Assembly: GCA_029945665.1 (NCBI GenBank)
Contig: JAQSCZ010000011.1
Coordinates: 16,746 to 55,079 of the forward strand
DNA length: 38,334 bases
Direction of reading: 5' to 3'
Origin: a bacterium
Lineage (GTDB): Bacteria > Bacteroidota > Bacteroidia > NS11-12g > UBA955
The position numbers and the translations under genes are program-made. This document shows, one piece after another, positions 8,232 through 36,697 of the stretch. The stretch's first letter is position 1. Each line of letters starts with the position of its first letter. The notes beneath the pieces were generated by a model. That model made no database searches, was not told the origin of the DNA, and saw only the letters and a program-made list of their open reading frames with translations.

Positions 8232-8722
8232 TTAAGCAGCTAGCAATTGGCCGGCTTGTTTCATTTCATTAAGGACGTCCTCTAAATACCGCTCCATCAA
8301 TTTATAAAATGAAGGTTTAGAAATACTCTCATCAAGATTTTCATTGCGTATTTTACATTGTTTACTATACACAAACGTTAATTCACCATCTTTATATAAA
8401 TGCCCTGAAATATTAATTTCTCTGTATCCAGAAATAGAAATGAAGAAACAATTTTTATTTAAATTTTTGATTGTTTCTGTGGTTTTGCTAACATCATAAT
8501 CATTTCTTTGATGGACATTGCTAAAATGATTATCAAAAACGATTACTTGATAATTTAATTTAGAGTTTCCAATCAAAGATTCAACCGCAGTTAGTGAATC
8601 AATTTCAAATTTTAAATTATCGATAGATTTTTTGTTACTCAGTTCATTAATTTCTTCGTTAATTAAATGACTGTAATAAGCTGCTGTTCAATAACAGCAA
8701 TTTTAATTTTTTTAAGTTTCAT
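8232..8722 (-). pseudogene. Frameshifted atypical receiver-like gene
   Basis: The ATG at 8722 opens a frame reading MKLKKIKIAVIE that stops at 8663-8665. The next frame is open from 8687 to the stop at 8232-8234. Joining the two between 8664 and 8689 (one base short in the window) gives about 163 residues. The joined product looks like a divergent CheY fold: strand KIKIAVIE, strand YQVIVFDNHF with an Asp at the phosphoacceptor place, then strand NCFFISISG; the usual acidic pair after strand 1 is absent. The downstream part alone has only a TTG start. The break coincides with a 7-bp hairpin (8682-8688 with 8693-8699). A consensus promoter lies just upstream, so either the mutation is recent or this is a base error in the assembly. 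Confidence 0.6.
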
Positions 8723-8742
8723 AGTTTCAAGTGTAGTTTCAA

Positions 8743-8773
8743 CAAAGCTACCATAAATAGTTTAATTACCAAA
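8743..8773 (-). promoter_or_regulatory. Consensus Bacteroidota promoter of the frameshifted gene
   Basis: On the minus strand TTTG (8770-8773), a 19-bp spacer, then TAGCTTTG (8743-8750). Both boxes and the spacing match the TTTG-N19-TAnnTTTG consensus. Leader about 14-20 nt. This is the best-formed promoter in the window. Confidence 0.65.
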
Positions 8774-9122
8774 CTGATAGGTGTCATGTTATCACTTATA
8801 GGAAGCAGAATTATTGCAACATAAAAACATGTTTTTTAGTGCGTTACAAATTCAGGCTTTGCACTACAATTTTTCACAAAAAACTAGAGCAAATTAAAGA
8901 CTAAAAAACGGCCAATTGTTATATTAAATTTTTAAATATTTTATATTAAAAATATGAATCACAGTAATTTATAAAAAATAAAAAAATAAACTATTTATTC
9001 GAAGTAAAAAATAGCCAGAAAAAATATTACGCTGATATTGATATTCTTAGTTATTTTCATAATATTTTAACTTTTTTACAACCTAAATAACACGACAAAT
9101 TATCTGAATACAAAAGACTTAC
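8774..9122. other. AT-rich intergenic stretch without recognisable genes
   Basis: About 350 bp between the frameshifted gene's promoter and the stop of the response regulator. It is extremely AT-rich, especially 8930-9000, with A and T runs. I see no open frame of note, no repeat shared with other parts of the window and no RNA gene. Confidence 0.6.
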
Positions 9123-9518
9123 TTAAGAAATAATTCTTAATATCTTATCTAATTTTTGCTTTGTTAAAGGCTTTTGAATAAATCCTTTTATAGCATGATA
9201 AGAAAAAGATTTCTCCTTATCAGCAGGATTAATTGAAGATGTAAAAACAAACAATGGAATTTCAATTGGAATTGATAACTTAAGAAATTCATCCACAAAC
9301 TCCCATCCATCCATAATTGGCATATTCAAATCAAATAAAATTACTTGTGGAAGTTGTTCATTATTTACAATGGCTAGTTTCAATCTTTCAATTGCTTGCA
9401 AACCATCGGTAAAAGTTAGTGTTCTGCTACAAAATTCCTCCTTTTTCAATAAGGCTCCCGTCAGATAAATAATAATTTCATCATCATCTATTATGTATGC
9501 CAAGTTAATTTTCTTCAT
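9123..9518 (-). CDS. Single-domain response regulator (CheY-like receiver)
   Basis: A 131-residue stand-alone receiver domain. The acidic cluster DDD at residues 11-13, phosphoacceptor Asp63 (ILFDLNMPIMDGWEF), switch Thr93 and Lys116 (QKPL) are all present, so it should accept phosphate from a histidine kinase. There is no output domain, so it acts through protein contacts or as part of a phosphorelay. It lies back to back with the PAS-rich histidine kinase at 9814; the 295 bp between them would hold both promoters, though no exact TAnnTTTG element was found there. Pairing with that kinase is inferred from position. Confidence 0.92.
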   Translation of the reverse strand: MKKINLAYIIDDDEIIIYLTGALLKKEEFCSRTLTFTDGLQAIERLKLAIVNNEQLPQVILFDLNMPIMDGWEFVDEFLKLSIPIEIPLFVFTSSINPADKEKSFSYHAIKGFIQKPLTKQKLDKILRIIS

Positions 9519-9813
9519 ATAGTTTTAATTCAAAATATCAATTACAGACTGCTAAATTAGCAAATAATGCACTTTAAAAACAAAAACTATAAGTCAAATT
9601 AGTTGTCATTAAGTAAAAAGATTTTCATACAAAAGTAATTAAATTGTTGTTAAAAAAAACAAAATATTATAAAAATTACCATTTATTGTGTAATCAAAAA
9701 GGCTACCTAAATCTTAATCTTTGTACAGAAAAGTATTTGCACAAACATTTATAAATTCAGTTTTATTTAAATTGTAATTATTCATACCCATTTGCTTCCT
9801 CTTTTAAATATTG

Positions 9814-12048
9814 ATGAAAAATAAAATATTCACAGAACAATCTCTACTGAATACATTGCTTGACAACCTCCAAGAAGGCGTGCAAGTAATAGATCGAGAT
9901 TGGCATTATAAATACTTAAATAATTCTTTAGAAAAAAGAAATAAGTTTAAAGATGGAGAACTAATTGGCAAATCAATGTTGGACATATATCCGGGAATAC
10001 AGGATAGTAAATTGTTTAAAATTCTTGCAAGATGTATGACAAAAAGAACTTCTTTCAAAATGGAAACAGCATTTGTTATGCCTGACAATTCAACAGGTTG
10101 GTTTGAACTAAACATACAACCTGTGCCTGAAGGCCTTCTTATATTATCTAATGATATAACAAAACACCATAAATCGACTCGAAAGTTGAAGAAAATCGAT
10201 TTTTTTAACACCAATGTACTTTCTTCCTTAAATTTCCAAATAGCTGTAATTAATAATAAAGGAACACTCATCTCCGTAAATAAAGCATGGAATGATTTTG
10301 GAAAGGAAAATGGCTCAACTTCCTTAAAGCGAAGCGCCGTAGGCAGTAATTATTTTAAAGTTTGTAAATTGGCTATATTGTCAGGTGATACGCTTGCTAA
10401 AAAAGCGATAGATGGTATTCTTTCTGTTTTTAACAAAGAAACACCGTCATTTGAAATGGAGTACCCTTGTCACTCGCCTCAAAAACAACGGTGGTTTATA
10501 CTCAACGCAAAACGCTTTGAATCTGATGATAATTACTTGGTGATTTCGCATCAAGATATTTCGGCTCTTAAAAGTGCACAATTAAAAGTGCATTCTTCCG
10601 AAATAAAATATAAACGTCTATTTGAAACGACCAAGGAGGGGATATTAATCATAGATGCCACAAACGGTAAAATACTAGACGCTAATCCATTCATCAGCTC
10701 GCTTTTAGAATACCCATATTCTGAACTTTTAGGTAAAGAATTCTGGGCGATTGGATTGAATAAAGACATCAAAGCTTCAAAAAACACGTTCAAAAAATTG
10801 AAGTTTAAAAAATATCTTCGTTATGACGATTTACCGTTGAAAAGCAAAAAAGGAAAGGTTATATACGTTGAATTTATTTGTAATGTTTTCGTGATTGACA
10901 ATACCAAAGTTATACAATGTAATATTCGTGATATTTCTGAAAGAAAAATAAACGAAGAATTGCTGCAAAAATTGCAAATTAACATGCGAGCTGTTTTAAA
11001 TAACACAGATGCAAATATTTATTCTTTAGATAAAGATTTTAGATATACATCCTTCAATTTGCAACTTTATACTCAATTAAAAAATTTATATGGAATCACT
11101 ATTAAAATTGGGGACAGTGTTTTTAATTTTCATGAAAGTATACACTCTGATGAGGCCATTAAATGGAGATTAATTTATGAAAAGGCACTAACAGGTGAAA
11201 TTGTGAAATTTGAAAAAGAATTTAAAACTGATGCATTTTATAATTGTTCGGCATTTTCTATTTATCCGATTTGGGAAAGCACCGCCGTGGTGGGTCTATC
11301 GTGCTTTGTTATAGACATTACAAAACAGAAATTGGAAAGTATTCAAAAAGAAAAAATGATTGTAGATATAATTCAGCGCAATGATGCGCTAGAGCAATTC
11401 ACATACATTATTTCTCATAATCTAAATGGGCCTTTTGCAAATATCGTTGGGTTAATTGACCTTGTAAAAGAGCAGATGAAAAAATCAGAAGAAAATACGA
11501 TAATTAAAAAAGGCTTAACCTCTTCCATAGGAAAACTCAATGAAGTTATAAGCGACCTCAATAACATTTTACAAATAAAAAAGTTGGATGAACAAAATAC
11601 AAGGGTCCAATTTTCAGTAGTTATCAAAGATATACTTTCAAATTTTGAAACAATAATAACAAATATTCATGCTCAAATTAATGAAAATTTTTCTTTAGTT
11701 GATGAAGTAATTACGATTAAAAGTTATCTGCACAGTATACTTTTTAACCTGATTTCAAACAGTATAAAATACAGAAGACAAGATGTTAAACTAATTATTG
11801 AAATTGATACATACCAAGAAGCAAGTAATATAATCTTAAATTACACAGATAATGGAATGGGTATTGACTTAGATAAAAAAGGAAGCCAAGTATTCGGTTT
11901 ATACAAACGTTTTCATACTGATAAGGCAGACGGTAAAGGCATAGGATTATTCATGGTAAAAGCGCAGGTAGAGGCGCTAGGCGGGTCAATTAGCATAAAA
12001 AGTGTGGTCGATATTGGAACTTCCTTTAAAATAACATTTAATCAATAA
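9814..12048 (+). CDS. Soluble multi-PAS sensor histidine kinase
   Basis: A 744-residue cytosolic kinase with no membrane segment or signal peptide. By pattern there are four PAS-like sensor modules, at about residues 10-115, 130-250, 260-385 and 390-505; the second and fourth are the most divergent. The phosphorylated histidine is in SHNLNGP (His535). The ATPase domain has the N box (SNSIKYRR, about 645), DNGMGI (679) and GKGIGLF (about 707). The H box and the kinase type resemble the soluble PAS kinases common in Bacteroidota. The start is taken as the ATG at 9814; a TTG lies one codon earlier. It is divergent from the receiver at 9123-9518, its likely partner. The signal sensed is unknown. 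Confidence 0.92.
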   Translation: MKNKIFTEQSLLNTLLDNLQEGVQVIDRDWHYKYLNNSLEKRNKFKDGELIGKSMLDIYPGIQDSKLFKILARCMTKRTSFKMETAFVMPDNSTGWFELNIQPVPEGLLILSNDITKHHKSTRKLKKIDFFNTNVLSSLNFQIAVINNKGTLISVNKAWNDFGKENGSTSLKRSAVGSNYFKVCKLAILSGDTLAKKAIDGILSVFNKETPSFEMEYPCHSPQKQRWFILNAKRFESDDNYLVISHQDISALKSAQLKVHSSEIKYKRLFETTKEGILIIDATNGKILDANPFISSLLEYPYSELLGKEFWAIGLNKDIKASKNTFKKLKFKKYLRYDDLPLKSKKGKVIYVEFICNVFVIDNTKVIQCNIRDISERKINEELLQKLQINMRAVLNNTDANIYSLDKDFRYTSFNLQLYTQLKNLYGITIKIGDSVFNFHESIHSDEAIKWRLIYEKALTGEIVKFEKEFKTDAFYNCSAFSIYPIWESTAVVGLSCFVIDITKQKLESIQKEKMIVDIIQRNDALEQFTYIISHNLNGPFANIVGLIDLVKEQMKKSEENTIIKKGLTSSIGKLNEVISDLNNILQIKKLDEQNTRVQFSVVIKDILSNFETIITNIHAQINENFSLVDEVITIKSYLHSILFNLISNSIKYRRQDVKLIIEIDTYQEASNIILNYTDNGMGIDLDKKGSQVFGLYKRFHTDKADGKGIGLFMVKAQVEALGGSISIKSVVDIGTSFKITFNQ

Positions 12049-16823: not shown

Positions 16824-17834
16824 TTATGCTAAAACAGGTACTTCTCGAGGTGCGTAATTTTTTGCCTTTTCGGCAATTGCCTTAATATGCGCTGGTGTTG
16901 TTCCGCAGCAACCGCCAATCATATTCACCCAACCTTCGGCCATAAATTTTTCGACGACATTCGCCATGGCTTCTGGCGATTCATCGTATTGTCCAAATTC
17001 ATTCGGCAAACCTGCATTGGGATAGGCCGTAGTATAAACCCAAGCCACACGGCTAATTTCACTTATATGTGGAATCATGTCTTTAGCACCTAAGGCACAA
17101 TTAAGGCCGATGCTAATAATATTGGCATGCGATAGGGAGTTCCAAAATGCTTCTGGGGTCTGTCCACTTAAAGTTCTACCACTGGCATCGGTTATAGTGC
17201 CAGATACCATCACTGGGATATCAATTTGTCTTTTGTCTTTAATTGTATTTACAGCAAATAAAGCTGCTTTTGCATTTAAGGTATCAAAGATGGTTTCTAC
17301 CAATAGCAAATCAACGCCACCATCGAGCAGTGCATTAATTTGAGCAGAGTAGGCTTGCACCAAATCATTAAAGGTAACGGCTCTGTAACCAGGATTATTG
17401 ACATCCGGACTTAAAGACGCAGTTTTCGTCGTTGGACCAATGGCACCGGCTACAAAACGGGGCTTGTCCGGATTGGCAGATGTTGCCTCTGCTGCTACTT
17501 TTTTAGCAATTTTAGCCGCTTCGAAATTAATTTCATAAACCAAGTCTTCCATGTGATAGTCTGCCATTGAAATGGCTTGGGCATTGAAAGTATTGGTTTC
17601 GATAATATCGGCACCAGCCTCCAAAAATTCCTTATGTATGGCTGCAACTATATCTGGGCGGGTTAGTACCAATAAATCGTTATTGCCTTTTACAGAATGC
17701 GGAAAATCTTTGAATCTTTCGCCTCGGTAATCTTCTTCAGTTAATTGATAGGTTTGTATCATGGTGCCCATTGCGCCATCTATCACCATTATTCTTTCAG
17801 AAAGAATTTTTTCGATTGTTGATTTAGTACTCAT
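16824..17834 (-). CDS. metH: Homocysteine-binding subunit of a split methionine synthase
   Basis: A 336-residue homocysteine S-methyltransferase domain corresponding only to the N-terminal module of cobalamin-dependent MetH (about 1,200 residues in enteric bacteria). Zinc-ligand cysteines occur at GLNCALG and in the [10 protein letters not shown] pair. DGAMGTMIQ and ETNTFNAQ are MetH rather than BhmT/MmuM blocks. The folate, cobalamin and reactivation modules are absent and are not encoded elsewhere in the window. Bacteroidota commonly split MetH, so this is probably a functional subunit rather than a truncation; the clean stop and the intact domain support that. It starts 2 bp after the tyrS stop, indicating translational coupling. 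Confidence 0.88.
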
Positions 17835-27934: not shown

Positions 27935-29566
27935 TTATTCCTCTGATAAGAAAGGATACCTGTAATCCTTTACAGGGACTAAGGTTTCCTTAATTGTACG
28001 GGTACTTGTCCAACGCAATAAATTGGCTTTACTACCAGCTTTATCATTGGTACCACTTGCTCTGCTGCCACCAAAAGGTTGTTGACCTACAACAGCACCC
28101 GTTGGCTTATCGTTGATATAAAAATTACCAGCAGCATTTCTTAAATATGCGGTTGCTTGAGTAATGGCATAACGATCCTGTGCAATTACAGCCCCTGTTA
28201 ATGCATATTCGCTAGTCGTATTTACAAGTTCTAAAGCTGTTTCAAATTCATTCTCATTGTATACGTAGAGTGTCAACACCGGACCGAATAATTCTTCGCA
28301 CATAGTAACATACTTTGGATTTTGAGCAACAATGATGGTTGGATCTATGAAATAACCTTTGCTTTTATCGTATCCTCCGCCAACAATAATTTCGACTGTT
28401 TGGTCATTTTTAGCGCTATCAATGTATTTTGAAAGTTTATCAAAAGATTTCTCATCAATTACTGCGTTCACAAAATTTGTAAAATTCTCTGTTGGACCGA
28501 CCTTCATGGTTTTTACTTCAGCCACTAATTTCGATTTTATCGCATCCCAAAGATTTGAAGGAATGTAGGCGCGCGAAGCTGCAGAGCATTTTTGACCTTG
28601 GTATTCAAAAGCACCACGGGCCAAAGCGGTAACTGTAGTATCCACATCGGCACTTTTATGCACCAGTACAAAATCTTTACCCCCTGTTTCACCTACTATT
28701 CTTGGATAGGTTTTATACTTGTGAATATTGGCACCAATACTGTTCCACATACCGCGGAAAACACCAGTAGAACCAGTGAAATGTAAGCCCGCAAAATCAG
28801 GATGATTAAAAATAATATCCCCTGTTGTTGGGCCATCGGTATAAACAAGGTTAATAACACCAGCTGGTAAGCCAGATTCAATTAGAATCTCCATAATTAC
28901 CTGTGCAGAATATATTTGGGTAAAGGCTGGTTTCCAAACCACCACATTGCCCATCATGGCCATGCTTGTTGGTAAATTACCTGCAATAGCCGTAAAGTTA
29001 AATGGCGTTAAAGCAAAAGTGAATCCTTCTAAAGGGCGATGCTCCAAACGATTCCATATAGTTTTGCTGTTAGCTGATGGTTGATCGGCATAAATTTCGG
29101 CCATGTATTGCACATTGAATCTTAAAAAATCTATCAATTCGCAGGCAGCATCAATTTCTGCTTGAAAGGCATTTTTAGATTGCGCCAACATGGTGGCAGC
29201 ATTCATTTTGGCACGGTAAGGACCGGCTAATAATTCAGCGGCTTTAAGGAAAATGGCAGCTCTTTGCTCCCAAGGCATATTTTCCCAAGCTGACTTTGCA
29301 GCAAGCGCTGCATTAATGGCATCGGTAACATGCTGAGCTTCGCCTTTATGGAAGGTACCAATTTGGTGATGAATATCGTGTGGAGGAAAAATATTTTGAG
29401 TATGGCCAGTTCTAACCTCAGCCCCATTGATGTACATGGGGATATCAATTACTTTACTTCTGGCTTCTACAAGCGCTTTTTTAAGTGCTAATTTTTCTTT
29501 GCTTCCTGGTGCATAATCCAGCACAGTTTCGTTGATAGCCGTTGGTATTTTGAAAAAACCGTTCAT
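27935..29566 (-). CDS. pruA: L-glutamate gamma-semialdehyde (1-pyrroline-5-carboxylate) dehydrogenase
   Basis: A 543-residue NAD-dependent aldehyde dehydrogenase completing proline (and ornithine) degradation to glutamate. The N-terminus (LDYAPGSKEKLALKKAL) is typical of the stand-alone, mitochondrial-like P5C dehydrogenases. The cofactor block FTGSTGVFRG, the catalytic glutamate region VGETGGKDF and the catalytic cysteine in QGQKCSAASR are intact; EELFGPVLTLYVY and GQQPFGGSRASGTNDKAG close the domain. No proline dehydrogenase is in the window; it is a single gene. TACCTTTG with a TTG box 21 bp further upstream forms its promoter. Confidence 0.95.
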   Translation of the reverse strand: MNGFFKIPTAINETVLDYAPGSKEKLALKKALVEARSKVIDIPMYINGAEVRTGHTQNIFPPHDIHHQIGTFHKGEAQHVTDAINAALAAKSAWENMPWEQRAAIFLKAAELLAGPYRAKMNAATMLAQSKNAFQAEIDAACELIDFLRFNVQYMAEIYADQPSANSKTIWNRLEHRPLEGFTFALTPFNFTAIAGNLPTSMAMMGNVVVWKPAFTQIYSAQVIMEILIESGLPAGVINLVYTDGPTTGDIIFNHPDFAGLHFTGSTGVFRGMWNSIGANIHKYKTYPRIVGETGGKDFVLVHKSADVDTTVTALARGAFEYQGQKCSAASRAYIPSNLWDAIKSKLVAEVKTMKVGPTENFTNFVNAVIDEKSFDKLSKYIDSAKNDQTVEIIVGGGYDKSKGYFIDPTIIVAQNPKYVTMCEELFGPVLTLYVYNENEFETALELVNTTSEYALTGAVIAQDRYAITQATAYLRNAAGNFYINDKPTGAVVGQQPFGGSRASGTNDKAGSKANLLRWTSTRTIKETLVPVKDYRYPFLSEE

Positions 29567-29593
29567 ATTGTTTGAATTAGATTAAATGAGGTG

Positions 29594-29625
29594 CAAAGGT
29601 AATTTTTTTAACTGAGAAAATTCAA
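29594..29625 (-). promoter_or_regulatory. Candidate pruA promoter
   Basis: On the minus strand TTG (29623-29625), a 21-bp spacer and TACCTTTG (29594-29601): both boxes and the spacing fit the Bacteroidota consensus. Leader about 20 nt. Confidence 0.55.
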
Positions 29626-29689
29626 CGGATATTCTATTCCATTAACTCTTACTGCAAATTAAGAAGTACAATTACTTGTTTCATTTTTA

Positions 29690-31102
29690 TTAATCCAAAG
29701 GAATACTATCAATAAGATTTAGTTTACCCTTTTTGTTACTTGTTACACCAATTATATGTAATAAGTTGCGACTAGATTCAAGGTAAAAAGAGGAAAAGTA
29801 AAAATCTGTGTCCATATTAGAATATGAATTTATTAACTTAAACTCATTTGAATAATTGTTAATTTTATATATTAATAAGGTTTTAGAAATCATATTCATT
29901 ATAGACAGATAAACATTATCTCCATATTTCTTAATATCACAAAAAACGGCAGTATCATTTCCAAATTTAGAAATTTTAAGTGACTTTGATGTATTATTGT
30001 CTATTAAAATATTCTTAACTAGGTTATAAGTATATTGATGAAAAAAGATATTTCCTTCAAATATTTTACACATATAATTTGATTTAACTTGAGGCTGTTC
30101 GACTAAACTATAATTTTGATTCAACAAAGTATAATAATATTTTGGATTATCATTCGTTATTTTTTTACAATGCAAAGCTGGCTTTTCATCTATTACAGAA
30201 AAATAACATGCATAACGAATGGCATTATCACCAATTGGTATTTCCACTACCCTTTTAGGAACTAAACTAGTTTTGACAATCCCCAATTCTATCCAAAATT
30301 GTCTGTAAGCCAATTCCACCTCATTGTTGCTTTTCAATAATTCAATTTTTGTTTTCATTTTAGCATAATCAATTAAGGAGAATTTAATATAAAGCCTATC
30401 GTTATAATAAGCATAACTAGTTAACTGACTTTCCATGATTTCTCCAACATCTGTTAAATAAAATAATCTTTTAGATTTTAAGATTGAATCAAATGAATTG
30501 TTAGGATAAATAAATGAAAGTAGTAATGAATCACTTAAGCAAAAGGATTTTGTTACTTTTGATTTCAAATTTGAAACAAGTATGTTTTTTGTCAACGAAG
30601 AATATATGGAATAATATTCGCCACATGTAAAAAAACCATTTGTTCCAAAAAACTTATTTTTATTAATCGAATCATTAATTAAATCTAAATTTTTTTGTGA
30701 AAAAAAGTTAATCTGGGAATCTTTAGGTAGGGCGAAATTATTTAGATCTTCAATTTTTTCGGCTAACTCCTTAACTTTGAATTTATATAAAATTTCATCA
30801 TTTTCTGAATATTCAAGATAAACCTGACCCATAGAAAATAACTTGTTATACTTATCTTTATTAATTTCATAAGGTATATTTTTAACCTTTAAAAATTCTA
30901 AAACAAAATAATGTGCAAGTGAAGAATCAACATTATCCAAAATCAAATAAGGATTCAGACTTTTATCAATTTTATTGACAAATTTATATGCAGACAAGCA
31001 AATTTGACAATCCTTAGTGTTAACTGCTATCAAACACTTTTTTTGAGCATTTAATTTATTAATTAAATGGCAAAATATCAAAAGTAATATCTTTAGTTTC
31101 AT
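29690..31102 (-). CDS. Secreted protein with an N-terminal CxxC thioredoxin-like region; function unknown
   Basis: A 470-residue exported protein. The signal peptide covers about residues 1-19 (ending near LNAQ). Residues 20-120 read like a thioredoxin fold: a strand before DCQICLSAYKFVNKI, where CQIC is a CxxC, then PYLILDN, and the closing VYLEYSENDEILYKF before a helix. The remaining 350 residues are rich in short beta strands, Tyr, Asn and Lys, and could be a six-bladed propeller (for example YRQFWIELGI, DTAVFCDIKKYGDNVYLSI), but no blade motif is secure. It is preceded by a 129-residue secreted-protein gene and a hairpin. Codon use is very AT-rich compared with the flanking housekeeping genes. 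No named family was recognised. Confidence 0.6.
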   Translation of the reverse strand: MKLKILLLIFCHLINKLNAQKKCLIAVNTKDCQICLSAYKFVNKIDKSLNPYLILDNVDSSLAHYFVLEFLKVKNIPYEINKDKYNKLFSMGQVYLEYSENDEILYKFKVKELAEKIEDLNNFALPKDSQINFFSQKNLDLINDSINKNKFFGTNGFFTCGEYYSIYSSLTKNILVSNLKSKVTKSFCLSDSLLLSFIYPNNSFDSILKSKRLFYLTDVGEIMESQLTSYAYYNDRLYIKFSLIDYAKMKTKIELLKSNNEVELAYRQFWIELGIVKTSLVPKRVVEIPIGDNAIRYACYFSVIDEKPALHCKKITNDNPKYYYTLLNQNYSLVEQPQVKSNYMCKIFEGNIFFHQYTYNLVKNILIDNNTSKSLKISKFGNDTAVFCDIKKYGDNVYLSIMNMISKTLLIYKINNYSNEFKLINSYSNMDTDFYFSSFYLESSRNLLHIIGVTSNKKGKLNLIDSIPLD

Positions 31103-31113
31103 ATTTTAAAATA

Positions 31114-31146
31114 AACATCACTGCCCTTTTTATTGACAGTGATGTT
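31114..31146 (-). terminator. Intercistronic hairpin between the two secreted-protein genes
   Basis: AACATCACTG (31114-31123) and CAGTGATGTT (31137-31146) pair perfectly over 10 bp around a 13-nt loop. In the minus-strand direction it is followed by only a weak T-rich tract (TATTTTAAAAT). It lies between the stop of the 129-residue gene and the ATG of the 470-residue gene, with no -7 element between, so a leaky terminator or an mRNA processing/stabilising hairpin is the best reading. Confidence 0.6.
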
Positions 31147-31162
31147 AAAAAAGTTTGTAATT

Positions 31163-31552
31163 TTAAGGTAAAACTTCAATTGAATAATCAGTGGATGGAA
31201 TTGCAAAAGGACCTACCCAACCAGTTCCAAGAGTGTAGCTAATATCAAAAGTGTTAGAATTCACTGGAATTTTAGTAACAGAGTTAATTGATGTTTCATT
31301 TGAACTTAAGTCTGGTATTTCAATGGTTGCTGAAATAATATTTGTTAAACCAATTGACCCATCTGCGCAAATCGCTCTTATAATAACACAGGGTCTTGTT
31401 GGATCTGTGATACACCGTGGTAAGTTTCCATTTCCTCCACTGCCTGGGACATAATATCCCCAAACCCTCACTTTATAACCATTTGTTGTTGCATTAAGAA
31501 ATCCAATAGACAAAGAGGTAAAAATTAATAATACCAAAATTTTGTTTTTCAT
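31163..31552 (-). CDS. Small secreted protein, unknown family
   Basis: A 129-residue protein with a clear signal peptide (residues 1-21, ending near LNAT). The mature part has a glycine-rich GYYVPGSGGNGN segment, a cysteine trio (PRC, RPC, AIC) and beta-type stretches toward IEVLP at the end. It is not a lipoprotein (no lipobox Cys) and has no CHU_C or Por sorting domain. It precedes the CxxC-containing secreted protein in the same orientation, separated by a hairpin, and follows an XRE regulator. The promoter CTTG-N20-TAATTTTG lies about 95 bp upstream. The odd number of Cys (three) could favour an intermolecular disulfide or a metal site. Function unknown. Confidence 0.65.
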   Translation of the reverse strand: MKNKILVLLIFTSLSIGFLNATTNGYKVRVWGYYVPGSGGNGNLPRCITDPTRPCVIIRAICADGSIGLTNIISATIEIPDLSSNETSINSVTKIPVNSNTFDISYTLGTGWVGPFAIPSTDYSIEVLP

Positions 31553-31643
31553 TTTATTTATTTATTTAAATTTTGCTTACTCTAAAACGTTTTCAGCATA
31601 CCGTACAATATAAATTTAAGCGCTATTGATTTATAAAGTTGTA

Positions 31644-31674
31644 CAAAATTAAAAACTAACTCAATAGCAATCAA
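31644..31674 (-). promoter_or_regulatory. Candidate promoter of the 129-residue secreted-protein gene
   Basis: On the minus strand TTG (31672-31674), a 20-bp spacer and TAATTTTG (31644-31651). Good match in both boxes. Leader about 85 nt, the longest in the window, so room for RNA-level control. It lies directly behind the XRE gene's stop. Confidence 0.5.
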
Positions 31675-31699
31675 GCTATAAATTATAGCAAAAAATAGC

Positions 31700-31975
31700 C
31701 TATTTATCCTTACCGACAAGTTTATTCAAGATTTCTTTAATTTGCTTTAATTCCTCAATTATATCCATTCCATTAATTTCCATATTTTCCATTTCATCCT
31801 TCGATAAATCAAAAAATTCAGCAATCTTTTTTTTACATTTATTATCCAATGATATCAAACCCGATTCCACTTTACTTACCCAATTTTGAGATTTATTTAA
31901 GTAACCAGCTAAATTCTCTTGTGAAAATCCTTTCAGCTGACGTAAATATTTTATTTTCTTCCCTAAATTAGACAT
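31700..31975 (-). CDS. XRE-family DNA-binding regulator of the secreted-protein cassette
   Basis: A 91-residue protein: an N-terminal Cro/CI helix-turn-helix (KGFSQENLAGYLNKSQNWVS, then KVESG) at about residues 8-62 and a C-terminal amphipathic helix (ELKQIKEILNKLVGK) likely used for dimerisation. Its product is the first of three co-oriented genes. A perfect inverted repeat GCGTAG-AA-CTACGC lies 70-83 bp upstream of its ATG and may be its own operator. No exact -7 element was found before it. It is distinct from the XRE protein at 8005-8226, which is shorter and not closely similar outside the core. Confidence 0.85.
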   Translation of the reverse strand: MSNLGKKIKYLRQLKGFSQENLAGYLNKSQNWVSKVESGLISLDNKCKKKIAEFFDLSKDEMENMEINGMDIIEELKQIKEILNKLVGKDK

Positions 31976-32044
31976 GATTAATTGTTTAAAAGTTAAATTG
32001 TAATTTTGTTGGGCTAAATTAAAACTAGTTTTCTATTTAAAAAA

Positions 32045-32058
32045 GCGTAGAACTACGC
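32045..32058. promoter_or_regulatory. Operator-like inverted repeat
   Basis: GCGTAGAACTACGC: two perfect 6-bp arms with a 2-bp centre, GC-rich within a strongly AT-rich gap. It is placed between the divergent XRE gene and the large surface-protein gene. Size and symmetry suit a dimeric XRE repressor; a short RNA hairpin is the alternative. Confidence 0.5.
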
Positions 32059-32314
32059 AATATTTTGAGTCATTTTGTCCTGCCAAAAAGGTTAAATACT
32101 TAAAATTAAGAATTTTATATTTTTTTAATATTTTAAATAATATTAAATATTTAGTCGCAAAACTTCAACAAGTTAATAATTTATGTAATTGTCCTTCTAA
32201 AACCTGGAAACAAAATTCAATTGTATAAATCTAGATTAACTGAAAAAAACTCAACCGTTGAAACGCTAACCTGTACATTATTAAATCCAAATTGTAAAGT
32301 TATTTAATAACATG
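32059..32314. other. Divergent intergenic region upstream of the large surface protein
   Basis: The gap from 31976 to 32371 is about 396 bp. Apart from the inverted repeat at 32045-32058 and the promoter-like boxes at 32315-32345, I see only AT-rich sequence with A/T runs, no open frame and no repeat shared with the rest of the window. Confidence 0.5.
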
Positions 32315-32345
32315 TTGACAATTTAAGTATAAACACTTAAATTTC
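32315..32345 (+). promoter_or_regulatory. Candidate promoter of the large T9SS-type protein gene
   Basis: TTG (32315-32317), a 20-bp spacer and TAAATTTC (32338-32345), one mismatch from TAnnTTTG. Leader about 20 nt. Confidence 0.42.
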
Positions 32346-32371
32346 GCCTCAATTAACATTTTCATAACACA

Positions 32372-35300
32372 ATGTCTAGAATATACAGGATATTTTTATT
32401 TTTTCTGTTCTTGGGTCTTATTGCAAAACCAATGCAAGCGCAGGAATTATCCACCTTGGGCAAAACCTTTTGGTTAACTTTCATGGAAAATAATTCCAGC
32501 AATACGGATAGTGCGACTGCACCTCAGATGAAGATTGTTATAAGCAGCCCTAAAGCCACATCTGGCACAGTTAAAAATATAAATACTGGCCATAGTTTGC
32601 CTTTTTCCATTGGCGCTGGTGGTGGCGTTGACACCGTTCTTGTACCAAGCTATATGGGTTATTGTTTTAATTCTGAATTCAGATCGAAAAGAAACAGAGG
32701 ACTACTTGTAGAAGCAAATGACACAGTGGCTGTGAGCGCTCAAAGTACCAAATCATTTACCTGTGATGCTTCCCTTATTTATCCTATTGAAGCGCTAGGT
32801 GTTGATTATAGAATTTTATCCTATTTGGGCGATCCAAGTGGACCAAATTCAAATTACCGTTCGGCATTTGCAATTGTAGCAACTGAAAATAGCACCACTA
32901 TTGAAATTACACCCTCTGTGAATACGAAAGGTGGAATAACCGCTGGCACTAAATTTACAATTGTACTCAATAAGGGTGAATCCTACCAAGTTCAAGCCAG
33001 CACCAATAGACTCGATTTAAGTGGCACCTTGGTTCAAGCATTGAATTGCAAAAAAATTGCAGTTTTTGGAGGCAGCAGTAGAAGCGCCATTGGTCCTCCG
33101 GGGAGCTCGTGCGCAAGTTCTTATGACCATCTATACGAGCAAATGATGCCCATTAATTTATGGGGTAAAAAATTCATCATTGCACCGACTATATGGTCTA
33201 AAGCAAGATTAAGAAAATGGGAATTGATTAAAGTAGTATCAAACACTAATAATACCATTGTTCGTTTTAATAACCGTCCCGTAAAAATTATTAATGCAGG
33301 TTTTTCGGATACCTTTTGGATTGATTCCTCACGCTGTAAAAACACACTAATAACAGCCAATAGAGCTGTTGGAGTTTGTCAATATGCCTCCAGTGAGGCG
33401 TGTGATGGCGGTGGGTTTTTTGGCGGTGGAACTGATACAGACCCAATGATGATGTGGGTTGCGCCAATAGAACAATCCTTAAAAAGCTTAAACTTTAGTT
33501 GCGAAAATGCCTTAACCATAAATAAGTTCTTTTTAAATGTCTATGTTAAAACAGCCTATCGAAGTACTTTTAGATTAGACGGTGTAACACCAACGGCACC
33601 TTGGCAATTGGTTAACAATGACACCAGTTATTCTTACATACAGCAATCGGGATTGACACAAGGAAAACATAATATTACAAGTCCTTATGGTTTCTCGGCC
33701 ATGTTATACGCATACGGAGATCATGGTTCTTATGGTTACAATGCTGGATCCTCTGTAAAAGCTTTGAGTTTTTATATGACCGCCGCTGGCAAAAGCAGTT
33801 CTGATTTCGAATTGGATACGCCTTATTACGTTGCTTGTCAAGGTACTTCTATTCCATTTGATGTATCGACCTCATATGGTCCAAAATCTTGGAAATGGGT
33901 ATTGTTTAACCCTTCTGGGATTGTTACAAAGACGACCAAATCATTCAGTTACACGTTTAATGATACTGGTTTTATTAAGCTAATGGCAATAACCGAGCGC
34001 CAACCAATTGGTGTTTGCAATGGTATTAGCAAAGATACCTTAATCAATTACATCAAGGTGTTTGCTAAGCCAAAAATACGGCTAATGGCTGATACACTTA
34101 TTTGTAAAGGCAATAGTTTCTATATAACTTCGAAAACCGATGGAGATACTAATTATACCTTTACCCCAAGTACTTGGCTAAGTTGTAATAAATGTTATTC
34201 GCCTATGTGTACTCCTTTAATGGATACCAGCTATACAGTAGTTGCTACAACAAAAGGATGCACGCCAAGTAGAGACACCTTTAAAGTTAAAATTCGAGAT
34301 AGTCTATTCTTGTTCAAAAGCAATGACACCACAATATGTAGAGGAACAAACACAACCTTAAAAGCTTCGGCCATTGGAGGCAATTTAACAGGTCATTCAA
34401 TTGCTTGGGATAATGGGCTAGGCAATGGATTAACGAAGGTTGTTGCGCCAAAAGTAACCACCACCTATCGCATGATTTTAACTGATGGTTGCACTAAAGA
34501 TGGTAATGGCAACTTATATGCAGATACCAATTATATTAAAGTAACAGTGCTCGATAGTTTAAAAATAACCATGCCAAACGATACTAGCGTTTGCGAAGGT
34601 AATACTGTTACCTTTAAAGTTAAAATAGCAGGTGGGGTAGAAAGTGCAAGTGTGGTAAAATGGGACAATGGACTAGGAACTGGAATTAGCAAAACTGTTA
34701 CTGCCGGAACCAATACAATAACTTATAAAGCTGTTTTAAGCGATGGCTGTACAGTGCCAAAAGACAGTGGATATGTCAAATTAATCGTGCGTCCGTATAT
34801 TAAAATTGATACGATATTATATCAATCACCTGTCTGTAGAAATACAATATTTAAAGTGAGTTTAAAACTTAGCGGAGGTGATAGCACTGGCTACAGGGTT
34901 AGGTTATTAAACTCAACCTATTCCAATCCAGGTCAAATAATAGATAGTGTAAAAAACACTGCATATCCTTCTTTTAATATCAAAATTCCTGATGATTCTA
35001 AGTTTAAAATTGCATTCGATCAGGCATGTAATTCTCATACGGCACCCTTAAAACCATTTAATGTTGCCATAAAAAAGACACTCAATATTGTCTCTACCTT
35101 ACCTTTTGACAGTGTTTGTCGTGGACAAAATTATGATATCAAAGCAACAGGCAGTAATTCAGATAATATTTCAATTAAGTTTATACTTAAAAAGAAAAAT
35201 GGGGCAAATTACACCGCAATAGATTCAATGATCGATTTGGGCAATGCCTCTTTTAAACTAACACCACCGATAATCCCAGCAGATTACATCATAATAGGCA

Positions 35301-36697
35301 ACGATGGTTGTAATCGAAATGATACTGACAAGTTTAGCATTGCTATAAAAAATACACTCAATATTGTCTCTGCCTTACCTGTCGATACTGTTTGTTCAGG
35401 TCAAACATACGATATTAAAGCAAGCGGTAAGAATTCAGATAATGTTCCAATTAAGTTTATTTTAAAGAAAAAGAATGGAACGAATTATACCCCTGTAGAC
35501 TCCATGATTGATGTAAGCAATGCAACATTTACTGTTACTCCAACCATTACTCAAACAGATTATATTATTGTTGGTAATGATGGTTGCAATAAGAATGATA
35601 CAGACAAGTTTAGATTAATGATGCGACCGCCTATGACTTTTAACACCTATTTGGCCGACGTCGAATTGTGTAGAAAAGAAAATGTAACCTTGAGTATTTC
35701 GAGTGTTGCAGGTGGTAAATCACAAATTAGGACCTATACTTGGACAGATGCAAGTAATGGCAGTTTATTAGGAAGTGGTACAAGCGTAATAGTTACACCG
35801 ACTGGTTCTATGGATGTGGCCTTATCTGTTGATGATGGTTGCTCGACACCAATAAAAGACACTGCCAGAATATTTGTAGCTCCTGTTGTGAGTGACTCAA
35901 CCTTGGCTATTGACCTCGCAGGTTGTGAACCCTATTCTACTGTTTTCAAATTTCCAATTACAGTTGCTCAAACCATTGTAACAAAATTTAATTGGGTTTG
36001 GTATTTTGATAATGCTTTATTCACGAGCACTGCATCTATTGGAGGACAAACACATACCGATATACCAAGAACCTATAACACTGCAGGCACTTACAATGGA
36101 AAAGTAGAAATGGTATTATCCAATGGAAAAAAATGTTATTCATTTAATCAGCCAATCAATGTTTGGAAACAAGCTATTGCGGAATTTAGTTATTCACCAA
36201 TACAAATTGATATTATAGAACCATTGGTAACCTTTACTAATAAATCAATTGGTGCAACCAATTATATCTGGGATTTTGGCGACAAATCACCTTTGGATTA
36301 TCAAGACAACCCCACCCATAGCTACACTGATACTGGTGATTTTATTGTGACTTTAGTTGCTACCAATGCAGAAGGTTGTAATGATATGATAACCCATAAA
36401 TTAACAGTTTTAGATATTTTCAGAATTTGGATTCCCACAGCTTTCTCACCAAATTTAGATGAATTCAATTCTTTTTGGGCGCCAAATGTTACCTCAATGG
36501 AAAAGATGGAATTTGAGATTTTCAACAGATGGGGTGAACAGGTTTTCAAAAGCGATGGCAGTTTAAAATGGACTGGACAATATACCAATAAACCTGATGT
36601 GCCTTGTTCTGAGGGTATTTACTATTATCACATCAAAGTACGCGATAATAGAAAACATTGGCACTATTACAATGGTACACTTACCTTATTAAGATAA
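32372..36697 (+). CDS. Large secreted repeat protein: IgGFc-binding-like domain, Ig/PKD-like repeats, T9SS type-B C-terminal domain
   Basis: A 1,441-residue cell-surface or released protein. Signal peptide at residues 1-24 (ending MQAQ). About residues 28-400 resemble the IgGFc-binding N-terminal domain (LGKTFWLTFMEN, then WVAPIEQSLKS). From about 480 to 1,210 come Ig-like modules, several carrying a D-G-C motif (LTDGC, LSDGC, two GNDGC, VDDGC). Two modules, at about 903-994 and 995-1,086, are near-identical 92-residue repeats. A PKD domain (YIWDFGD, then HSYTDTGDF) precedes the CHU_C domain, about 1,350-1,441 (IPTAFSPN, FEIFNRWGEQVF, GIYYYHIKV), which directs export by the type IX system and anchoring. 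An adhesin role is likely but inferred. A strong terminator follows. Confidence 0.9.
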   Translation: MSRIYRIFLFFLFLGLIAKPMQAQELSTLGKTFWLTFMENNSSNTDSATAPQMKIVISSPKATSGTVKNINTGHSLPFSIGAGGGVDTVLVPSYMGYCFNSEFRSKRNRGLLVEANDTVAVSAQSTKSFTCDASLIYPIEALGVDYRILSYLGDPSGPNSNYRSAFAIVATENSTTIEITPSVNTKGGITAGTKFTIVLNKGESYQVQASTNRLDLSGTLVQALNCKKIAVFGGSSRSAIGPPGSSCASSYDHLYEQMMPINLWGKKFIIAPTIWSKARLRKWELIKVVSNTNNTIVRFNNRPVKIINAGFSDTFWIDSSRCKNTLITANRAVGVCQYASSEACDGGGFFGGGTDTDPMMMWVAPIEQSLKSLNFSCENALTINKFFLNVYVKTAYRSTFRLDGVTPTAPWQLVNNDTSYSYIQQSGLTQGKHNITSPYGFSAMLYAYGDHGSYGYNAGSSVKALSFYMTAAGKSSSDFELDTPYYVACQGTSIPFDVSTSYGPKSWKWVLFNPSGIVTKTTKSFSYTFNDTGFIKLMAITERQPIGVCNGISKDTLINYIKVFAKPKIRLMADTLICKGNSFYITSKTDGDTNYTFTPSTWLSCNKCYSPMCTPLMDTSYTVVATTKGCTPSRDTFKVKIRDSLFLFKSNDTTICRGTNTTLKASAIGGNLTGHSIAWDNGLGNGLTKVVAPKVTTTYRMILTDGCTKDGNGNLYADTNYIKVTVLDSLKITMPNDTSVCEGNTVTFKVKIAGGVESASVVKWDNGLGTGISKTVTAGTNTITYKAVLSDGCTVPKDSGYVKLIVRPYIKIDTILYQSPVCRNTIFKVSLKLSGGDSTGYRVRLLNSTYSNPGQIIDSVKNTAYPSFNIKIPDDSKFKIAFDQACNSHTAPLKPFNVAIKKTLNIVSTLPFDSVCRGQNYDIKATGSNSDNISIKFILKKKNGANYTAIDSMIDLGNASFKLTPPIIPADYIIIGNDGCNRNDTDKFSIAIKNTLNIVSALPVDTVCSGQTYDIKASGKNSDNVPIKFILKKKNGTNYTPVDSMIDVSNATFTVTPTITQTDYIIVGNDGCNKNDTDKFRLMMRPPMTFNTYLADVELCRKENVTLSISSVAGGKSQIRTYTWTDASNGSLLGSGTSVIVTPTGSMDVALSVDDGCSTPIKDTARIFVAPVVSDSTLAIDLAGCEPYSTVFKFPITVAQTIVTKFNWVWYFDNALFTSTASIGGQTHTDIPRTYNTAGTYNGKVEMVLSNGKKCYSFNQPINVWKQAIAEFSYSPIQIDIIEPLVTFTNKSIGATNYIWDFGDKSPLDYQDNPTHSYTDTGDFIVTLVATNAEGCNDMITHKLTVLDIFRIWIPTAFSPNLDEFNSFWAPNVTSMEKMEFEIFNRWGEQVFKSDGSLKWTGQYTNKPDVPCSEGIYYYHIKVRDNRKHWHYYNGTLTLLR
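35078..35629 (+). repeat. Tandem 276-bp (92-codon) repeat inside the large surface-protein gene
   Basis: Two units, 35078-35353 and 35354-35629. Both begin TLNIVS and contain IKFILKKKNG, NYT, DSMID and end near GND-GCN-NDTDKF. They are close in protein sequence but diverged at many codon third positions, so the duplication is not very recent. Confidence 0.8.

Follow-up and report, generated by a model that had tools for sequence, protein, structure and literature searches.

The stretch of DNA analysed here, hereafter termed the window, comprises 38,334 nucleotides (nt) from a bacterium of the lineage Bacteroidota; Bacteroidia; NS11-12g; UBA955 (GenBank assembly GCA_029945665.1, contig JAQSCZ010000011.1, positions 16,746-55,079 of the forward strand). 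The subject of this report is a pair of adjacent genes within it, encoding a small and a large protein that both carry putative export signals and are separated by a stem-loop. An earlier note, made from the sequence alone, had described the pair together with a gene for a regulator of the XRE type as a cassette of three minus-strand genes with a hairpin and a palindrome, and all of these elements were found where it had placed them. The features of the pair are as follows.

29690-31102, minus strand: large gene, an open reading frame (ORF) for a 470-residue, putatively exported protein with a predicted thioredoxin (Trx)-like domain and β-propeller
30998-31009, minus strand: CQIC motif, residues 32-35 of the large protein, the first Cys invariant in 24 of 24 relatives
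30731-31042, minus strand: predicted Trx-like domain, residues 21-124 (AlphaFold2; predicted local distance difference test, pLDDT, of 86-93 for residues 21-120)
29693-30703, minus strand: predicted β-propeller, residues 134-470, probably of six blades (VIA-align structural matches)
31114-31146, minus strand: stem-loop between the small and large genes, ending 11 nt before the large start codon
31163-31552, minus strand: small gene, an ORF for a 129-residue, putatively exported protein with a signal-like N-terminus and a C-x7-C motif; a relative adjoins the large gene in genome G051
31388-31414, minus strand: C-x7-C motif, Cys47-Cys55, the sole invariant columns across 13 aligned small proteins

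Large genes with a Trx-like domain were collected from Bacteroidia, giving a set of 24 (G numbers denote genomes and L numbers loci): the window, G051, G464, G426a, G426b, G339, G463, G182a, E. aurantiacus, G182b, G480, G220, G230, G511, G499, G521, G506, G529a, G529b, G509, G198, G493, G497 and G516. A small gene with a C-x(5-8)-C motif lies directly upstream of, and co-directional with, 19 of these 24 Trx-propeller genes, while the flanking genes differ. The two genes are thus genomic partners, and the recurrence in other Bacteroidota to which the earlier note had looked for support is observed. Among the 19 small genes, that of G511 has an in-frame stop and that of G497 lacks an ATG, GTG or TTG start; the large gene of G509 runs off its contig and so lacks the 3′ end. 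Excluded from the set were the copies of G516 contig 299 and G530, where contig-end cuts leave the Trx-like part beyond judgement, and the Trx-less propellers of G045, G536, G493 contig 244 and the second one of G198. Of these Trx-less propellers, the G536 copy has a small gene beside it, and those of G045 and G493 contig 244 have none. The second propeller gene of G198 (L144 2049-3197, 382 residues, Trx-less) follows the Trx-propeller gene.

Within the order (108 genomes), the large protein matched in three genomes (its own, G051 and G045) and the small protein in two (its own and G051). In G051, which belongs to the same genus, both genes stand side by side in a different neighbourhood without an XRE gene; the G045 copy of the large protein lacks the Trx-like part. 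A first contig scan with the 470-residue protein returned no relative. A profile search of 395 genomes of the class gave 17 at E≤0.1, nine of them real by gene layout, with L072, L074 and L075 inspected from the eight weak genomes; this search is not exhaustive, since G198 gave only a weak match elsewhere and was later found to hold a cassette. A two-member small-protein profile gave 41 of the 395 genomes at E≤0.1, with only its own genome strong and the weak L009 and L011 unrelated on inspection. Another search yielded 13 genomes, of which its own, G464 and G463 were real and, L042, L045 and L048 apart, the seven others were inspected and rejected. A further one yielded eight, of which its own and G182 (two cassettes) were real and, G735 apart, the weak ones (G790, G617, G719, G810 and G212) were inspected. 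Yet another search gave three weak matches (L051-L053). In family f12, 15 of 64 genomes match at E≤0.01, and the named carriers are Edaphocola flava HME-24 (G182) and E. aurantiacus H2. Plasmids and phages were considered as vehicles of the genes and rejected because tblastn matched the window large protein in neither plasmids nor phages, and the G230 large protein and the XRE protein in no plasmid.

Neither protein has a Pfam or NCBIfam match above cut-off, nor any in PADLOC or PHROGs; two sub-cut-off matches of the large protein (Curto_V3, 0.023; TIGR00242, 0.094) were dismissed as chance. A sequence search of solved structures found no convincing match to the large protein or to its profile; with the small-protein profile the top row was tissue factor (E 0.11), followed by 20 weaker ones, all likewise dismissed as chance. 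AlphaFold2 prediction of the 470-residue protein, poor with only three sequences (pLDDT 47.7), reached a mean pLDDT of 78.6 with 14 family sequences. In this model residues 21-120 follow the order strand-helix-strand-helix-(short strand, helix)-strand-strand-helix, and CQIC sits where the first long helix begins. Residues 21-124 are accordingly predicted to adopt a thioredoxin-like fold, as the earlier note had suspected for the first 100 or so residues, and comparison of the N-terminal family profile with a small Trx set by hhalign (64% probability, CxxC aligned on CxxC) agrees, less strongly than the structure prediction. When 339 proteins were ranked by hhalign, the best from outside the family was a 151-residue AhpC-TSA-like protein of G790 (90.8%; Pfam AhpC-TSA, E 1.1e-6), a match that is not independent because that protein, like the Trx proteins of the set, had been fetched with the same profile; the second (65.9%) was a sigma-factor-like protein aligned outside the cysteine motif. 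The G790 protein, of lipoprotein type, adjoins a 374-residue lipoprotein-type protein (L094 299-1875), so that in this example of the TlpA/AhpC-TSA type the Trx-like part is a separate protein, whereas here it is fused to the propeller. The G790 gene pair is possibly a split version of the Trx-propeller, although to call the 374-residue neighbour, which has no Pfam match, a propeller is a guess.

The C-terminal part of the model aligned by VIA-align with trypanosomal trans-sialidase (Z 14.5; root mean square deviation (rmsd) of 4.5 over 275 aligned residues), Pizza6 (Z 12.2; rmsd of 4.1 over 235), TolB (Z 12.0; rmsd of 4.1 over 228) and WD-type proteins at around Z 12-13. Sialidases, Pizza6 and TolB are six-bladed, and the propeller modelled here probably is as well. 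The top Foldseek rows were prolyl oligopeptidases with a low template-modelling score of 0.28, and the blade number therefore rests on the VIA-align rows and the strand count. Because the propeller fills the fold-search list, these searches are uninformative on the Trx-like part.

The small protein contains exactly three cysteines, at positions 47, 55 and 62, in agreement with the three counted in the earlier note. A crude signal-plus-motif test was passed by 18 of 20 cassette small proteins and by one of 47 other ORFs of similar size, a comparison in which some small genes had been identified partly through the C-x(5-8)-C motif; both failures concerned the signal. The small genes are in tandem in G464, G230 and G426b, and in the last an extra small C-x7-C gene (L059 7466-7868), read from the gap, separates the listed small gene from the large one. 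NVEALA (PF14055) was considered as the family of the small protein and rejected, as it had no match in the window's genome nor among the 13 small proteins at E≤0.1; no paper on NVEALA was found in the open-licence literature.

The two genes are separated in the window by a perfect 10-bp stem (31114-31123 paired with 31137-31146), with a folding z-score of -4.2 against 200 dinucleotide shuffles, none of which was equally stable. Perfect stems of at least 10 bp occur in 9 of the 12 small-large gaps examined first, versus 2 of 19 control gaps; one of these two control gaps lies just upstream of the G230 cassette, and the 19 include near-duplicate Edaphocola gaps. A z of -2.5 or lower, a threshold set after the values had been seen, was reached by 10 of the first 12 gaps and by 6 of a second set of seven that was examined after the idea had formed and includes G536, whose partner is Trx-less. 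The total of 16 of 19, in which the two Edaphocola loci are not independent, compares with 3 of 13 in a stricter control set (Fisher p 0.0009). Only the last 60 nt of the G426b gap were folded. The G536 gap has a stem-loop with z -4.1, and cassette gaps that do not follow a small gene gave +1.3 (large-propeller, G198) and -1.9 (large-large, G529). Between lineages the stems are conserved in structure and not in sequence. T-runs follow the stems of G516 and G198, most others having no clear one, and no Rfam family reached its gathering score over 29300-32400. These properties fit a leaky terminator or a stabiliser, and the recurrence of the stem-loop fits an effect on the ratio of small to large protein, which the element may set. 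A further 10-bp perfect stem was noted in G230, in the gap between a regulator gene and the first small gene.

Comparison of the two Edaphocola genomes bears on how the cassette evolves. Eight flanking genes are 94.8-99.5% identical with synonymous divergence (dS) of 0.13-0.27, while the cassette is far more divergent, with dS of 0.70 for the large and 0.88 for the small gene; this excess of dS over the flanks probably reflects exchange of the cassette at a fixed site. The mature small protein is nevertheless 94.5% identical, with a ratio of non-synonymous to synonymous divergence (dN/dS) of 0.04, compared with 77.3% and 0.18 for the large protein, so that constraint is stronger on the small partner. 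In 12 of 13 loci, G463 being the exception, the large gene has a higher AT content than the mean of its flanks. In the window, G+C content is 0.245 for the large gene, 0.272 for the XRE gene and 0.341 for the small gene, compared with an average of 0.380 over three flanking ORFs, so that the description of the block as far more AT-rich than its neighbours suits the large and XRE genes and not the small one. The cassette appears to be an accessory element, patchily distributed in Bacteroidia, whose products are probably exported.

The remaining features of the locus lie upstream of the small gene.

31700-31975, minus strand: XRE regulator of 91 residues, an optional part of the cassette (HTH_3, E 5.6e-7)
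32045-32058, no strand assigned: palindrome GCGTAG-AA-CTACGC ahead of the XRE gene, a candidate operator
31675-31689, no strand assigned: palindrome GCTATAA-A-TTATAGC between the XRE and small genes, a candidate operator or terminator

An XRE gene is found upstream in 4 of the 13 cassettes examined first, on the same strand in the window and divergent in G463 and both G426 cassettes (the G339 cassette, cut by a contig end, is among the 13), and none was seen by reading in the second set; the regulator is thus not the constant component that had been supposed. GCGTAG-AA-CTACGC occurs once in the window, against 0.18 matches expected with up to two mismatches, and 18 of 100 shuffles had at least one. 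The XRE genes of G426 and G463 are preceded by other short palindromes, and this one was not observed there. In G426 (L059 3396-8809) two tandem cassettes each have a divergent XRE gene of their own, and the stretches upstream of both XRE genes are nearly identical. Directly upstream of the G230 cassette (L084 3038-4806), genes for a histidine-kinase-like protein and a LytTR-type regulator were recognised by reading. In PADLOC the window XRE protein matched only generic helix-turn-helix models, the best being HTH_VI (2.9e-8, residues 3-85 of 91), a helix-turn-helix protein that is a partner in type VI retrons; no reverse transcriptase was noticed next to the window XRE gene.

The cassette is flanked by pruA (27935-29566, named by reading only) and by an IgGFc-binding/PKD/CHU_C protein (32372-36697). 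Elsewhere in the window, a second AT-rich block (8232-12048, G+C 0.28-0.31) holds ORFs of 114, 131 and 745 residues, of which, by reading, the second is response-regulator-like and the third PAS/histidine-kinase-like, and a 336-residue protein (16824-17834) resembles, again by reading, the homocysteine-methyltransferase part of MetH alone.

How the two proteins may work together can be outlined from these data. The first gene would provide a small exported protein whose Cys pair, 5-8 residues apart, probably closes a β-hairpin by a disulfide, and the stem-loop, most likely acting as a leaky terminator or 3′-end stabiliser, would make it more abundant than the second product, an exported protein with a predicted Trx-like domain on a propeller. 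The propeller would bind the small protein and present its Cys pair to the invariant first Cys of the Trx-like domain, which may form, isomerise or hold a disulfide with it; the Trx-propeller would then be no general oxidoreductase but the thiol partner of a single substrate. In this genome, repression of the unit probably falls to the XRE protein. We favour this account, in which a small disulfide protein made in excess is served by a dedicated thiol partner, only tentatively and at somewhat less than even confidence. It draws on the pairing in 19 of 24 loci, the invariance of both small-protein cysteines and of the first Trx cysteine, the predicted folds, the recurrence of the stem-loop and the constraint on the small protein.

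The first active-site Cys is kept in all 24 large proteins although these are as low as 11-19% identical. Several observations weigh against a dedicated thiol partner. The second active-site residue is Cys in 20 of the 24 and His in four, all within family f10, so that the CxxC reported by the earlier note, present as CQIC at residues 32-35 of the window protein, is general to most relatives but not to all. A Pro at the aligned cis-proline position is absent from 19 of 24, the window protein included, while a Pro stands a few residues before it in G463, G182a, E. aurantiacus and G220; because the reference thioredoxin (trxA) aligned poorly there, this position was placed from the G790 protein together with the pattern and the strand prediction. 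Five large genes (G499, G521, G506 and both of G529) have no small gene upstream, and in G536 (L142 4134-5683) a small C-x7-C gene precedes a 374-residue propeller with a lipobox-like signal and no Trx-like domain. In 11 genomes (G045 and 10 that carry a cassette) the 13-member small-protein profile gave strong matches at cassettes only, two weak ones (L113, L108) being unrelated by reading, but it missed the small gene of G182b, and distant solo small genes could therefore escape it too. As to the stem-loop, G051, G339 and G497 lack a significant stem, the G230 small and large genes overlap by 4 nt and leave no gap, and the choice of threshold and the non-independent Edaphocola loci temper the count given above.

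The five proteins that do have Pro at the aligned position (G529a, G529b, G506, G499 and G230) form one clade (FastTree support 0.991). A small partner is present beside 18 of the 19 large genes without the cis-proline versus one of the five with it, an association that, the five being one clade, amounts to one contrast and not to 24 independent ones. It would suit a further reading, that of the Trx-like domain as a covalent carrier: bound to it in a durable mixed disulfide on the propeller, the small protein would be passed on outside the cytoplasm. The attacking Cys would have been kept and the cis-proline (in one lineage also the second Cys) lost, and a leaky terminator would ensure that cargo is produced in excess. 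We consider this carrier role improbable. A 2026 study found a DsbA cis-proline variant to be impaired and saw no stable mixed disulfide, which argues against it; the same study cites earlier reports of substrate trapping (PMC13269488). Among the f10 cassettes, the small proteins of G339 (L060 208-573), G463 (L049 1943-2317) and G426b (L059 7869-8213) have an extra N-terminal C-x4-C and their large partners have CxxH and a single Cys in that region; G426a has CxxH plus another nearby Cys and a small protein without the extra C-x4-C. In these few, related cases the additional pair possibly compensates for the missing second Cys.

The lost cis-proline, the four CxxH proteins and the pairing of a small gene with a Trx-less propeller lipoprotein in G536 would fit a ligand-receptor pair, with the small protein as a signal that is secreted or as a ligand in the matrix, the propeller as the receptor and a degenerate Trx-like domain that is only structural or used in binding. 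The inactivity of the Trx-like domain of human NHLRC2 in an insulin assay (PMC6107167) points the same way. This explanation is appreciably less probable to us than a dedicated thiol partner, as a first Trx Cys kept in 24 of 24 proteins and both small-protein Cys in 13 of 13 are hard to explain without thiol chemistry. An antibacterial or competitive function of the small protein, with the large one as its maturation, tethering or immunity partner, is unlikely: a small, exported product with a disulfide suggested by its motif, tandem copies (G464, G230, G426b), the patchy distribution (nine real genomes among 395 in a search that was not exhaustive) and the exchange of alleles between two Edaphocola species indicated by dS would suit such a role, but constraint is stronger on the small protein than on the large one (dN/dS 0.04 vs 0.18), unlike in the product of an arms race, and neither has a match in PADLOC or another family. 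That functionally unlinked genes merely share a low-GC island by chance, as the low GC of the block and the lack of XRE from most other cassettes might suggest, is very improbable; for the small-large pair it is contradicted by an order that 19 of 24 loci share although their flanks differ, the same-genus G051 among them.

Among known proteins, human NHLRC2 and its bacterial homologues share the order of Trx-like domain and propeller (PMC6107167). NHLRC2 carries the motif CCINC, NHL repeats, a cis-proline and a β domain at its C-terminus, and in seven genomes its bacterial homologues were found to lack conserved neighbouring genes; the family described here has CxxC or CxxH, export signals, mostly no cis-proline and an upstream small gene. 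The CC(I/V)NC motif is found in none of the 24 large proteins (the window has CQIC), and no NHL family was among the Pfam matches at E≤0.1 of any of the 11 members compared, although divergent repeats could escape. With Trx-fold oxidoreductases the window protein shares the predicted fold and CxxC and not the cis-proline before the third core strand. DsbL with arylsulfate sulfotransferase is a dedicated pair of thiol oxidoreductase and substrate, encoded side by side and both exported, as proposed here; unlike it, the presumed substrate here is very small, the oxidoreductase carries a propeller and the pairing is a proposed one. In lantibiotic-type operons a stem-loop follows the gene of the small precursor and precedes that of a larger partner, as here, but in the present cassette both products have export signals and no modification-enzyme family was matched. 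Neither protein matched a core protein of the PADLOC anti-phage systems. Judged by titles and the beginnings of abstracts, no paper found by searches of the open-licence literature describes such a pair. We class it as a variant of dedicated redox-partner systems, without assigning it to any one of them.

Joint annotation becomes possible for two presumably secreted families that have no entry in Pfam or NCBIfam, and the succession of a small C-x(5-8)-C gene, a stem-loop and a Trx-propeller gene provides a signature for finding further members. The family is a natural series of Trx-like domains in which the attacking Cys is kept and the cis-proline mostly lost. In Trx-fold proteins generally the cis-proline is better conserved than CxxC (PMC2757866); here that order is reversed, and most members have a candidate partner next door. 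With the Cys kept, the cis-proline lost and the partner adjacent, a change from a general oxidoreductase to a device for one partner, which the family may represent, becomes testable.

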